Source: Aromatoleum toluclasticum ATCC 700605 (GTDB lineage Bacteria; Pseudomonadota; Gammaproteobacteria; Burkholderiales; Rhodocyclaceae). Taken from it: 64,000 nucleotides of DNA. Under the pieces are notes generated by a model, which saw only the letters and a list, made by a program, of their open reading frames with translations, did not search any database and had not been told where the DNA came from. Location: contig NZ_KB899492.1 in NCBI RefSeq assembly GCF_000378245.1, positions 62,001 through 126,000 of the forward strand, in the 5' to 3' direction. Position numbers and translations under genes: made by a program. The stretch's first letter is position 1. The number at the start of each line of letters is the position of its first letter. Positions 35,411 to 55,993 of this stretch are shown piece by piece.

Positions 35411-35486
35411 GGGGGTATAGCTCAGTTGGTAGAGCAGTTGACTCTTAATCAATTGGTCGTAGGTTCGAATCCTACTGCCCCCACCA
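35411..35486 (+). tRNA. tRNA-Lys (CUU), target of integration
   Basis: A 76-nt cloverleaf with acceptor GGGGGTA/TGCCCCC, anticodon loop CTCTTAA (anticodon CTT), T arm GTAGG-TTCGAAT-CCTAC and CCA. Its 3' half is repeated exactly 20.5 kb downstream, so the integrated element has regenerated an intact gene. Confidence 0.97.
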
Positions 35487-35490
35487 GATA
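35438..35490. repeat. attL: 53-bp direct repeat within tRNA-Lys(CUU)
   Basis: It starts at TTGACTCTTAATC in the anticodon arm and ends at CCACCAGATA, 4 bp past the CCA end. It is identical over 53 bp to 55941-55993. It is the left junction of the integrative element. Confidence 0.93.
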
Positions 35491-35502
35491 ATCAAGCACT
35501 TA

Positions 35503-35534
35503 GGCCAGCTCTTCGGAACTGGCCTTTTGCTTTT
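35503..35534 (+). terminator. Terminator supplied by the element behind tRNA-Lys
   Basis: GGCCAG and CTGGCC (with CTCTTCGGAA as arm and loop) followed by TTTTGCTTTT, 16 bp after the tRNA end. It resembles, but is not identical to, the terminator at 56001-56033 that originally followed the tRNA gene. Confidence 0.8.
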
Positions 35535-35541
35535 CTGGGGA

Positions 35542-35565
35542 TTGGGGAGGAATTGGGTAGGAATA
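35542..35565 (+). repeat. Left pair of candidate integrase arm-type sites
   Basis: Two tandem copies of a 12-mer, TTGGGGAGGAAT then TTGGGTAGGAAT. The final 18 bp of this pair recur exactly in direct orientation at 55812-55829 near the other end of the element, as expected for arm sites bound by a tyrosine integrase. Confidence 0.6.
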
Positions 35566-35651
35566 AAAATCGTCGACCGCTTCCGAGGCAACTCCGGTTG
35601 CTCCCGTGTCCGCTGCAAGCTCGCCGTACCGACTCGCTGCACGGGAAGACG

Positions 35652-35984
35652 TCACCAGTGAATGGTGCGATATGCCGCCGCCCTTGCGCGCTCCACGAGC
35701 TCTTCCATGATGAGCGCGGGGTATAGATCGAGGATCTTGCGGTCCTCACCGCTCGCATTCGCCCCGCCGGCCTTTCGCCATGCCGCGATCAGCGCCTCGA
35801 GCGTTTCGTCGGGCAAGGCGTGGAACGCCTGCTCCACTGCGGGCAGAAAGTGGTCCTGCGCCGGATACCAGGTCTGATACCCGGCGTCGAAGATCTGCCG
35901 CTTCAACTCCCACCACGCCCACCTGCGTCGGCGCCGCACCTTGGCGATGGTGTCGCGCAGCAATCGCTGCTGCTCACGATTCAT
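35652..35984 (-). CDS. Hypothetical protein at the left end of the element
   Basis: A 110-residue open frame transcribed away from the cas operon. It has a basic, Trp-rich N-terminal helix (RRRRRWAWWELKRQIFDAGYQTWYPAQD) and a helical remainder (PDETLEALIAAWRKAG...ALIMEELVERARAAAYRT). It is soluble by composition. No family is recognised. A cargo or accessory function is possible, and it could equally be a small DNA-binding protein. Confidence 0.55.
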   Translation of the reverse strand: MNREQQRLLRDTIAKVRRRRRWAWWELKRQIFDAGYQTWYPAQDHFLPAVEQAFHALPDETLEALIAAWRKAGGANASGEDRKILDLYPALIMEELVERARAAAYRTIHW

Positions 35985-36170
35985 TTCCGCACCCCTTCGT
36001 CACTGGTTCATAAATCCCGCCTTCAGCATCGCGCCTGCAATCCCCCGCGTCGCGTCGCCCCCCTGTCGCCGGACTTGCCGCCAAGGACGCCAATGCCCTT
36101 CCCAGACCAGCCGTTGCTTTGGGTATGCGCGATCGATCGGTCGCGCCTGGTAGGCGTATCGATTTCAATT

Positions 36171-36198
36171 CTGGCAAACATATTGCCCATCGTATAAT
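36171..36198 (+). promoter_or_regulatory. Promoter of the cas operon
   Basis: CTGGCA, a 16-base spacer and a perfect TATAAT, 54 bp upstream of cas3. The surrounding DNA is AT-rich compared with the window. No obvious operator overlaps it. Confidence 0.65.
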
Positions 36199-54068: not shown

Positions 54069-54385
54069 TCACCCTCGAAAGCGGTAGCGACGACAACCCA
54101 TGCACCGTCGGGTTTCTGCTTGAGCACGACGCCCACTGTCAGGCACATCCCGGCGCTGCGTCCGCTCACGTTGCATCGCCAGTCTCCGCGCACGTCCTGA
54201 TGCAGCGGCTCGGACACGGTCCCGGTACGCAGCACCTGAATAATCTGACGCCGGCCGATCTTTCGCTGCTGCATCCGTTCTTCGGCGTGCTGCGAGAACA
54301 GCAGGCGACGGCGCCCTTCCGCGGCCTCCTGCATCCATTGTCGAGCCTGGCGCTCGGAGGGCGGAAACGATTCAATCGGCGTCAC
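54065..54385 (-). CDS. DUF4258 toxin-like protein
   Basis: A 106-residue protein whose core is FSQHAEERMQQRKIGRRQIIQVLRTGTV followed by beta strands DWRCNVSG and LTVGVVLKQKPDGAWVVVATAF, the DUF4258 fold. Members sit next to HTH antitoxins and resemble RelE-type toxins. GTG 54385 is only about 10 bp below a strong -10 element, so it may be read from an almost leaderless message, or the real start may be ATG 54334. It stabilises the element if it is a toxin; activity is not proven. Confidence 0.72.
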   Translation of the reverse strand: MTPIESFPPSERQARQWMQEAAEGRRRLLFSQHAEERMQQRKIGRRQIIQVLRTGTVSEPLHQDVRGDWRCNVSGRSAGMCLTVGVVLKQKPDGAWVVVATAFEGE

Positions 54386-54394
54386 CTACCGTAC

Positions 54395-54422
54395 ATTGTA
54401 TGGGTTAATCGACCAAATTCAA
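54395..54422 (-). promoter_or_regulatory. Promoter of the toxin-antitoxin-like pair
   Basis: Read on the minus strand, TTGAAT, a 16-base spacer and TACAAT lie between the integrase and the DUF4258 gene. The -10 box is only 9 bp upstream of the GTG start. Confidence 0.6.
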
Positions 54423-54429
54423 GATTGCT

Positions 54430-55794
54430 TTAAGCACTGCGCAGCTGCACCACATTGGCGGGCGCAGTCACGCCCTTCTCGATGGCATCCAGCTTGTTCT
54501 CCCAAGCCGTCAGCGCAGCCGCTTTCTCGTCCAAATAGCTGTGTCGGTCGTAATGGGCGGCCTGCACGCCGCTGATGCCGTGGCTCAGCAACTGCGCGCG
54601 GATATCCTTGCTGATGCCCAGGCCGGCAAGCATGGTTTCAACCGTGCGGCGAATATCGCGAAGATCGAAGGATTCGCCACCGAGGTTGGCAGAGATTTCG
54701 GCAGCTCGGTTGCTCACCGTCTCACCCGTCATTGCCACGCGGCCGTGCGTCGAGAAAAGCCACAGACCGGTCGTGTCGGGTGCTCTACCCTCCTTGTCAG
54801 CACGTTCCTGCTCGCGTTTTCTGGCGCGTTCAGCCAACCCGGCGACCAGCCCCGCTGCCTTCGGCGCCAACGGCAGGAGATGTTCGCGTGCGGTCCGGCG
54901 CTTCCCCTTCCCATCCCACAATCGGAGCGTTGCCATGTCGGCGTTGTAGTCGCTCACTTTGGCGCGCAACAGTTGCGCCATGCGTTGGCCGCCAGCGTAC
55001 AGGGCCAGTTTCAGGGCCTGGTCGGGTAGATCGTCACCCAAGGCCTTGAGGTAGGCACGCAATTCATCGACGGAAAGGGTGCGGTCGCCGCGCTGGACCG
55101 CAATCGCGGGGATGGCGTCGACGGGGTTGTGTTCGATGCCGAACGGGATCAGGTCGGCAGGCAGAGCGGAATCGAACGGCGCGCGCTTCGCGGCATTGAA
55201 AGCCGCGGACAGGTAGGAGCGCAGTACGCCAGCGGCCCGTTCCTTGCCGGCCTCGCGAACCTTGCGAACCGCCGCAGCGATTTGATGTGCAGTGACCTCG
55301 CGGGCCGGCATGCCGGCGGTCTCCGTGCTCAGATGGCACTTGAACAGGCTGCGAGCGGCGCTGGCGCTCTTGACCTTGCCGGCACGTTCCAGTGTAGATA
55401 CATAGGCGTCGCACAAAGCGCGCAGGGTGTAACGCTGCCTGTGCTCCGCTTCGGCCTTGGCTGCCAGCTCCGCTGCTGCGGCGGCCGCTCGTGCGGCCTC
55501 GCGCGCTTCCTCTTCTTCACGCAGCGCCTCGCGCGGGTCGCGCCCTTCGTCGACCAGCTTTTGCCAAGCAAAGGCCTTCGCCTTCGCCTCGGGGAGGGGC
55601 ACCGCCCCCACTTCCCCGATGGTGATGCGAATTTCCTTGTAGGCCAGCGTCGAGATGAAGATGAAAACCTTGCTCACCCCCCCACGAACGGGACGGCTGC
55701 GCACCGCCAGATGCGACTCCGTATCGCGTAACAACGCCTCCTTGGGGGGTCGCCAGTTGGCGATGCGGGTGTCTGTCAGTCGTTCCTTGGGCAC
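54430..55794 (-). CDS. int: Tyrosine integrase of the element
   Basis: A P4-type tyrosine recombinase of about 454 residues. It has an N-terminal DUF4102-like arm-binding domain (LTDTRIANWRPPKEALLRDTESHLAVR), an Ala/Glu-rich linker (about 100-130), a core-binding domain, and the catalytic domain with YAGGQRMAQLLR (Arg), FDLRDIRRTVET, QLLSHG (His) and HYDRHSY (Tyr). The His of the usual HxxR box is Arg here, as in a subgroup of island integrases. GTG 55794 (AAGGTGG upstream) is preferred over GTG 55851, because the longer version would run through the arm-site repeats. It lies beside attR and targets tRNA-Lys. Confidence 0.92.
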   Translation of the reverse strand: MPKERLTDTRIANWRPPKEALLRDTESHLAVRSRPVRGGVSKVFIFISTLAYKEIRITIGEVGAVPLPEAKAKAFAWQKLVDEGRDPREALREEEEAREAARAAAAAAELAAKAEAEHRQRYTLRALCDAYVSTLERAGKVKSASAARSLFKCHLSTETAGMPAREVTAHQIAAAVRKVREAGKERAAGVLRSYLSAAFNAAKRAPFDSALPADLIPFGIEHNPVDAIPAIAVQRGDRTLSVDELRAYLKALGDDLPDQALKLALYAGGQRMAQLLRAKVSDYNADMATLRLWDGKGKRRTAREHLLPLAPKAAGLVAGLAERARKREQERADKEGRAPDTTGLWLFSTHGRVAMTGETVSNRAAEISANLGGESFDLRDIRRTVETMLAGLGISKDIRAQLLSHGISGVQAAHYDRHSYLDEKAAALTAWENKLDAIEKGVTAPANVVQLRSA

Positions 55795-55804
55795 GGCGGC
55801 CACC

Positions 55805-55829
55805 TTTGGGTAGGAATTGGGTAGGAATA
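55805..55829 (+). repeat. Right pair of candidate integrase arm-type sites
   Basis: Two tandem copies of TTGGGTAGGAAT, directly upstream of the integrase start at 55794. The last 18 bp equal those at 35548-35565. Besides recombination, binding here could repress the integrase gene. Confidence 0.6.
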
Positions 55830-55940
55830 GACTGCATTCTACGACATGCACCCATGTGCATCAATCCACTATTTCATATACCTATCAGTACATTACGTTC
55901 GCCGATGCATATCGATGAATTCCAAATTTCGGGGGGATTT

Positions 55941-55993
55941 TTGACTCTTAATCAATTGGTCGTAGGTTCGAATCCTACTGCCCCCACCAGATA
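55941..55993. repeat. attR: 53-bp copy of the tRNA-Lys(CUU) 3' end
   Basis: Identical to 35438-35490, starting at TTGACTCTTAATC and ending CCACCAGATA. It lacks the 5' half of the tRNA, so it is not a functional gene. It marks the right junction with the chromosome. Confidence 0.93.

Follow-up and report, generated by a model that had tools for sequence, protein, structure and literature searches.

The 64,000-nucleotide window analysed in this study (the whole stretch of DNA examined, from contig 2 of the 5.92-Mb, 46-contig genome of Aromatoleum toluclasticum ATCC 700605) contains an island which we interpret, with a probability of about 0.6, as an integrative element of a phage-satellite-like family, inserted at the 3' end of tRNA-Lys(CTT) and carrying a horizontally gained type I-E CRISPR-Cas (clustered regularly interspaced short palindromic repeats and associated proteins) system as cargo. 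A direct repeat of 53 bp, exact in both copies (35438-35490 and 55941-55993), delimits the island and encloses 20.5 kb; the left copy of this attachment (att) repeat makes up the 3' half of a complete tRNA-Lys(ctt), into whose 3' end the insertion occurred, while the right copy is recognised by the Rfam tRNA model (32.6 bits) as a fragment of a tRNA 3' end. The 53-bp repeats, the terminal integrase, the eight cas genes and the 41-repeat array described in the initial annotation were all seen again. The features at the two ends are:

35306..35381, + strand: host tRNA-Lys (anticodon ttt)
35411..35486, + strand: tRNA-Lys (anticodon ctt), the integration target, whole at the left end
35438..35490, + strand: attL, left copy of the exact 53-bp repeat (tRNA 3' half)
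35542..35565, + strand: candidate integrase arm-type sites of the left end, GGGGAGGAAT and GGGTAGGAAT, 11 nt apart (putative function)
55806..55829, + strand: candidate integrase arm-type sites of the right end, two copies of GGGTAGGAAT, 11 nt apart (putative function)
55941..55993, + strand: attR, right copy of the 53-bp repeat

The paired 10-bp repeats of the GGGTAGGAAT type, which are spaced at 11 nt inside both ends (35544/35555 and 55808/55819), are inferred to be integrase arm sites; a pair of the same type adjoins the 70%-identical integrase of L139, itself beside tRNA-Met, and six further related islands were checked and had none. Just 3' of the tRNA end (35490-35540) the element brings a hairpin with a T-rich tail that resembles the host hairpin following attR (55994-56032), and similar structures occur in several related islands.

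Integration at this tRNA was assessed across the genus (Azoarcus/Aromatoleum) in 17 genomes, each from a different species, in all of which the tRNA-Lys pair was matched. The syntenic site is empty in six of these (G002, G003, G009, G013, G015 and G016), the genes that flank the island directly flanking the tRNA pair on both sides, and in each of the six the joined window flanks align across the empty junction over 321-322 of 322 bases at 80-88% identity. In G014, too, the DNA following tRNA-Lys(ctt) is free, with approximately 2.2 kb between the two tRNAs. A second att copy and a related integrase occupy the site in G004, G005, G007 and G011 (the G007 integrase match being partial), a second att copy with a different integrase is present in G001, and G012 carries an island at the site for which no second att was detected; G006, G008 and G010 possess another arrangement and are unscored for site occupancy. 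An integrase, direct att repeats that include the tRNA 3' end and empty sites in relatives, i.e. the features by which an integrative element is recognised, are therefore all present.

Relatives of the integrase were counted at an identity of at least 59% (n = 20), leaving out eight weaker or short matches and four repeat contigs; the 20 comprise 11 of 19 non-window matches in one search, eight of 12 loci in a second and one from a third. With the eight I-E Cas proteins as queries, tblastn (E <= 1e-4) gave no match in the DNA examined of any of the 20, bearing in mind that only I-E cas genes were sought, that several stretches are cut by contig ends and that L137, L138 and both G007 copies are partial. 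Both the empty tRNA-Lys(CUU) site and integrase relatives without I-E cas genes, for which the initial annotation had suggested a search, were encountered, in agreement with its view of an att-bounded integrative element; neither a cas locus at this site lacking att repeats nor an integrase phylogeny marking the cas genes as a separate ancient insertion emerged from this comparison of one genome per species.

The cargo is a complete type I-E locus, in which each of the eight cas genes (36253-44845, + strand) matches at least one NCBIfam model above cut-off and whose order, cas3-cas8e-cse2-cas7-cas5-cas6e-cas1e-cas2e, is the canonical I-E order as presented in the relevant passages of PMC6360697:

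36253..38880, + strand: cas3, 875 aa, HD and helicase domains
38884..40458, + strand: cas8e/cse1, 524 aa
40455..41000, + strand: cse2, 181 aa
41039..42229, + strand: cas7, 396 aa
42141..42962, + strand: cas5, listed from the first start codon, the true start probably being later
42926..43675, + strand: cas6e, 249 aa
43669..44562, + strand: cas1e, 297 aa, the sole Cas1e-family match in this genome
44534..44845, + strand: cas2e, 103 aa
44846..44903, + strand: putative leader, on the cas2 side and opposite the degenerate last repeat
44904..47370, + strand: CRISPR array of 41 repeats and 40 unique spacers, of which spacers 22, 29, 30, 34 and 37 have candidate protospacers preceded by AC

The repeats are 28 nt long, follow one another at a start-to-start step of 61 nt in 39 of 40 cases (60 nt in the other) and are identical in 40 of 41 copies, the last being degenerate; the degenerate last repeat and the cas2-proximal leader indicate the usual I-E polarity. 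With repeats of 28-29 nt, spacers of about 32 nt and a position beside cas2, the array has the properties expected of type I-E, and the CRISPR system looks intact.

Horizontal acquisition of this locus was examined in a tree of concatenated Cas3, Cas8e, Cas7 and Cas1, for which eight of the 21 Cas1 rows were used (one at 60% and twelve at 33-37% were omitted). The window groups with G044, a member of another genus, with a support of 1.0, and then with G038 and G102, while the same-genus G006 and G011 fall apart from it; the identity of the Cas proteins to those of the window is 79% in G044 and 62-63% in G011 and G006. By RpoB, the window genome is nearest to G006 and G011 (92.7 and 92.6%), with G082, G038, G102 and G146 at 78-87%. 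Since the grouping of the cas genes with other genera contradicts this kinship, the sequences indicate that the cas genes have moved horizontally. A flanking protein (73% in G044), initially considered as the yardstick of kinship, belongs to a multi-copy family and may be a paralogue, and was replaced by RpoB. The cas locus of G044 (L064:2797-19296) is followed by an integrase beside tRNA-Ser(tga) and is probably a second integrative CRISPR island, an assignment we regard as likely only, because its far att was not found in the 94.8 kb examined of its 154.8-kb contig. Relatives of Cas1e-Cas2 (Cas1 identity 47-63%) also occur in IMG/VR contigs L141-L148, viral as predicted by that collection, and L148 contains a nearly full I-E locus.

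The remaining genes of the element, among them the backbone by which we relate it to phage satellites, are:

35652..35984, - strand: hypothetical protein, 110 aa, no family match
47437..47643, - strand: small hypothetical protein, 68 aa, 58% homologue in the sister island L114
48607..49158, + strand: YdjM-like membrane protein, below the Pfam cut-off, 72% homologue in L114
49332..49532, - strand: small protein, 66 aa
49741..50202, - strand: DUF5681/small-terminase-like (TerS-like) protein, below cut-off, kept in L128, L135 and L139 (which lack I-E cas genes)
50392..52389, - strand: primase-helicase (PriCT_2 and AAA_25), 665 aa
52386..52967, - strand: HTH_39 protein, start uncertain
52844..53119, - strand: AlpA/excisionase-like HTH_17 protein, 91 aa
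53616..54068, - strand: HTH_3 protein, putative antitoxin
54065..54385, - strand: DUF4258 protein, putative toxin
54430..55851, - strand: tyrosine integrase, 473 aa

The replication and stability genes previously attributed to the element are recognisable as the primase-helicase and the DUF4258/HTH_3 pair, and its reported lack of structural or transfer genes was borne out when the open reading frames (ORFs) of the element were given to Pfam and PHROGs: no capsid gene was matched in these scans, nor was any relaxase or conjugation gene (the origin of transfer, oriT, was not searched). The AlpA-like protein matches HTH_17 (4.2e-07) and a DNA-binding-protein PHROG (1.3e-05). The TerS-like protein matches DUF5681 at 18.1 bits against a cut-off of 27.5 (its L139 homologue reaches 24.0 bits), and is a candidate for the packaging module known from phage-inducible chromosomal islands (PICIs), cos sites not being searched.

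The order integrase, toxin-antitoxin pair, AlpA-like protein, primase-helicase and TerS-like protein recurs without I-E cas genes in L128 and L139, and partly elsewhere. In L128 the integrase, AlpA-like, primase and TerS-like genes and tRNA-Lys(ctt) lie within approximately 7.5 kb between att copies, while L139, a predicted viral contig from IMG/VR, preserves the same order with a Gp49/HTH pair in the position where the window has DUF4258/HTH. The 9.4-kb island of G004 (L076:1807-11341) shares the tRNA, a related integrase, an AlpA-like protein and an AAA_25 protein, and in addition encodes an HK97-type major capsid protein (PF05065, 6.4e-15; PHROG, 1.4e-39) and a small terminase (2.8e-18), which suggests a capsid-forming, satellite-like element.

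Candidate targets were found for five of the 40 spacers, all of them in non-tailed phages. Spacers 22, 30 and 34 match one prophage, present in G002 and G004, with 2-3, 5-6 and 6-7 mismatches, respectively (in 32 for spacer 22). This prophage of approximately 10 kb (L193:16000-20000 and L194:1-7000 in G002; L195/L196 in G004) encodes a capsid protein like the double-jelly-roll capsid of PDB 9t9v (E 9.5e-8), PHROG head-and-packaging families and a packaging ATPase-like protein, and is taken as a tailless phage because of that capsid and those families. Spacer 37 has its match, with seven mismatches, where a related capsid gene (39%) of G024 begins. For spacer 29 the matches are to four phage records of filamentous type and approximately 7-8 kb, three of them in genes annotated ZOT and one in a hypothetical gene; the best is an Inoviridae record (four mismatches in 32, E 0.06), the others having E values of 3, 9 and 9.

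The dinucleotide AC precedes the match for all five spacers where checked (gaac four times and gcac once; spacer 29 in one record), as opposed to one of 18 other places with at most eight mismatches (spacer 5, G446); the list concerned has 30 rows, 11 for the five retained spacers and 19 others representing these 18 distinct places. The nominal probability of finding AC in five of five, 3e-7, is too small, as the matches were chosen partly by context. Shuffled and reversed spacers yielded matches with eight mismatches and one with seven, controls that overstate the contrast because many loci were fetched through matching real spacers. The 29th base of a type I-E repeat derives from the protospacer-adjacent motif (PAM). 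In the window array this base is C in 38 of 40 cases, and the C preceding the candidate protospacers agrees with it, as would be expected if that base were PAM-derived; we infer a PAM that ends with AC. Among 346 repeats counted in six related I-E arrays (L062, L063, L064, L065, L067 and L068), 319 have C as the base that follows the 28 nt, which suggests a PAM ending in C there.

Some spacer match at E <= 0.1 was obtained in 345 of 395 genomes, which we take as mostly chance, and a match spanning a spacer junction reached E 3.9e-6 in this search; only matches backed by context and AC were therefore kept. Two candidates per genome were scored, so that targets may be undercounted. Among phages, 57 records matched at E <= 10 (best E 0.06), from which only the four filamentous-type matches of spacer 29 were kept. 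The 71 plasmid records matched were taken, none being inspected, as CRISPR arrays with similar repeats, and matches of spacer 33 to Mu-like phages of Pseudomonas aeruginosa were set aside as they include repeat bases. Exact patterns of spacers 29 and 22 gave no match in IMG/VR, where the capsid protein query likewise found no relative. The suggestion that the element may use its immunity against competing phages or islands is supported for phages, through these five spacers, and not for islands, to which the available matches (L077/L135, L078 and L129) have eight mismatches and no AC. Conversely, 339 spacers of six relatives produced no convincing island match against the window and the collected loci, reversed spacers giving similar numbers. 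The window genome has no match to the capsid protein of the target prophage; as only two of the 17 genus genomes have one, this lack does not show exclusion.

Taken together, these data would be consistent with the following course of events. As the sequence and the empty sites show, the element inserts at the tRNA-Lys(CTT) 3' end through its tyrosine integrase, and its own copy of the 3' half keeps the tRNA whole. The cargo slot at the 3' end holds the complete type I-E locus, whose stored spacers appear to aim at non-tailed phages that occur within this genus or family. Cells that retain the island would be at an advantage through its toxin-antitoxin pair and immunity; the integrase and the AlpA-like protein may excise it, the primase-helicase may replicate it and a tailed helper phage may then package it. 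The proposed mobilisation by a helper phage is strengthened by the same-site relative in G004, which has both a capsid gene and a small terminase. With a tailed phage as helper, the competitors kept out by the island would be only those useless to it, a proposal that relies on five of 40 spacers.

A number of points weigh against this interpretation. Excision, replication, packaging and interference are predicted from the sequence, and the 20.5-kb size, compared with approximately 6-16 kb for seven other att-bounded islands measured, could block packaging; in the sections of Rousset et al. (2022; PMC9122126) relevant here, P2-like and P4-like elements are described as carrying short defence systems and lacking CRISPR-Cas, with capsid size as the likely reason. 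The label TerS-like is a weak assignment (predicted model with a pLDDT of 66.6 and no PDB fold match at E <= 0.001), and the AlpA-like protein matches HTH_17 and no AlpA family. As for the cargo, no target was accepted for 35 of 40 spacers, the matches of spacer 29 are individually weak, and RpoB was not matched in G044, which is nearest by its cas genes, so that the tree conflict depends on the other genomes and the distance of G044 is known by genus only. Lastly, the comparison covers one genome per species. Since packaging and induction are hypothetical and neither AlpA nor TerS is matched firmly, we use the term satellite-like and refrain from classifying the element as a PICI.

The 20.5-kb size, large for the family, and the want of any firmly identified capsid, packaging or interference gene would also suit a genomic island or integrative and mobilisable element independent of phages, equipped with an integrase and with replication and toxin-antitoxin genes and moved by conjugative helpers, transformation or generalised transduction, in which phage-like genes reflect ancestry only. 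We consider this unlikely, yet it is the alternative to be taken most seriously: no relaxase was matched in the ORFs scanned (see above for oriT), the AlpA-like, phage-type primase and TerS-like genes keep their order in relatives, and one of those relatives is found in a viral collection while another possesses a capsid gene and a small terminase. That the element is a decayed, immobile prophage remnant which received a CRISPR-Cas locus appears improbable, even though its primase has a 48% relative in the 56-kb predicted viral contig L151, structural genes are missing and the sister island L114 is visibly decayed, as the integrase is intact, the 53-bp att repeats are perfect, paired arm-like repeats are present at both ends and the same compact backbone lies between att copies in the 7.5-kb L128. 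An ordinary chromosomal CRISPR locus merely situated between two tRNA fragments might be suggested by the GC content of the element (approximately 60-71% in 2-kb windows), which is near that of its flanks, and is contradicted to the point of being highly improbable by the empty syntenic sites in six of 17 genus genomes, the conflict between the cas tree and RpoB and the lack of another Cas1e match in the genome.

The most unusual result is the occurrence, known from a single pair, of two islands at one tRNA which share a toxin-antitoxin pair and carry different CRISPR types. In G012 (L114:2177-12417) homologues of the 68-aa and YdjM-like proteins come after the same tRNA-Lys, and then type I-G genes, namely csb1/cas7g, csb2 and a cas3g split in two by an IS110 transposase, with a Cas3-extension-like protein just below cut-off and eight repeats with a 37-nt shared core. 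After the repeats there is a 1049-bp stretch that is 95% identical to the toxin-antitoxin region of the window, whereas the chromosome adjoining the island is only 87% identical. Such toxin-antitoxin DNA occurs in two of the 17 genus genomes, that of the window and G012. Since the G012 island yielded no integrase and its seven scanned ORFs no cas1 (some 65 kb away there is a distant Cas1, 37%), we read it as a remnant, visibly decayed. Type I-G Csb2 is likewise present in two of the 17 genus genomes, at this tRNA in G012 and, in G001, on a contig other than that of its tRNA-Lys pair; the I-G locus of G001 has an integrase-like gene and a tRNA-Ser(gct) no more than 20 kb away (L215:1669-2922 and 13253-13346). 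It is tempting, if decidedly speculative, to propose that, in a family of phage-satellite islands, a single tRNA-Lys slot serves as a port at which entire adaptive immune systems are interchanged (I-E here; I-G in a sister species, with a near-identical toxin-antitoxin pair alongside), and that the family arms itself against non-tailed phages, competitors for the host cell that could not serve as a tailed packaging helper.

The element provides a testable case of adaptive immunity on a small satellite-like element as opposed to a chromosome, a plasmid or a large island, and its relatives offer natural controls: the site without insertion, the 7.5-kb backbone on its own, an island that adds a capsid gene and a remnant in which the CRISPR type differs. 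It raises the questions of whether an island with CRISPR cargo can be packaged, and whether it benefits satellites to keep out phages that they cannot use as helpers.

Concerning known systems, the statement in the initial annotation that type I-E is usually chromosomal understates the precedent of GI-24 of Vibrio cholerae, a published integrase island with type I-E whose excision was shown by polymerase chain reaction (McDonald et al. 2019; PMC6360697). According to the passages on GI-24, it resembles the window element in carrying a complete I-E system on an integrase-bearing, att-bounded island that is absent from the reference strain, some of its spacers matching phage; it differs in host, in site and in its demonstrated excision, the window element being known from sequence, and those passages describe no satellite-type backbone. 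PICIs and capsid-forming PICIs (cfPICIs), as portrayed in the portions consulted of Fillol-Salom et al. (2018; PMC6092414) and PMC11389934, share with the element an integrase, an AlpA-like regulator, primase/replication genes and a TerS-like gene, and, in the former source, the order integrase, regulator and primase/replication genes with accessory genes at the 3' end or between integrase and regulator. The element differs from PICIs in its 20.5-kb size (phage satellites are given as 7-20 kb in the part of PMC13376191 concerned), in a regulator that matches HTH_17 only, in its adaptive immune cargo and in that helper, packaging and interference genes are unproven; the capsid genes typical of cfPICIs, none of which were matched in it, are present along with a small terminase in its same-site relative in G004. 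The P2/P4 hotspots are similar in that defence genes are phage or satellite cargo, and differ in that they reportedly lack larger systems such as CRISPR-Cas. CampyICE1, from what is set out in the excerpts of van Vliet et al. (2021; PMC8743540), is an integrative element with CRISPR spacers against competing mobile elements, related to similar integrative and conjugative elements without CRISPR; in contrast to the window element, it is conjugative, 70-129 kb in size, encodes Cas9 only and targets plasmids. No report of a complete CRISPR-Cas system on a phage satellite was met in the literature searched, much of it consulted in part, which is no proof of absence. CRISPR-Cas systems on integrase islands are known, and what appears to be new here is a complete type I-E system as the cargo of a satellite-like island.

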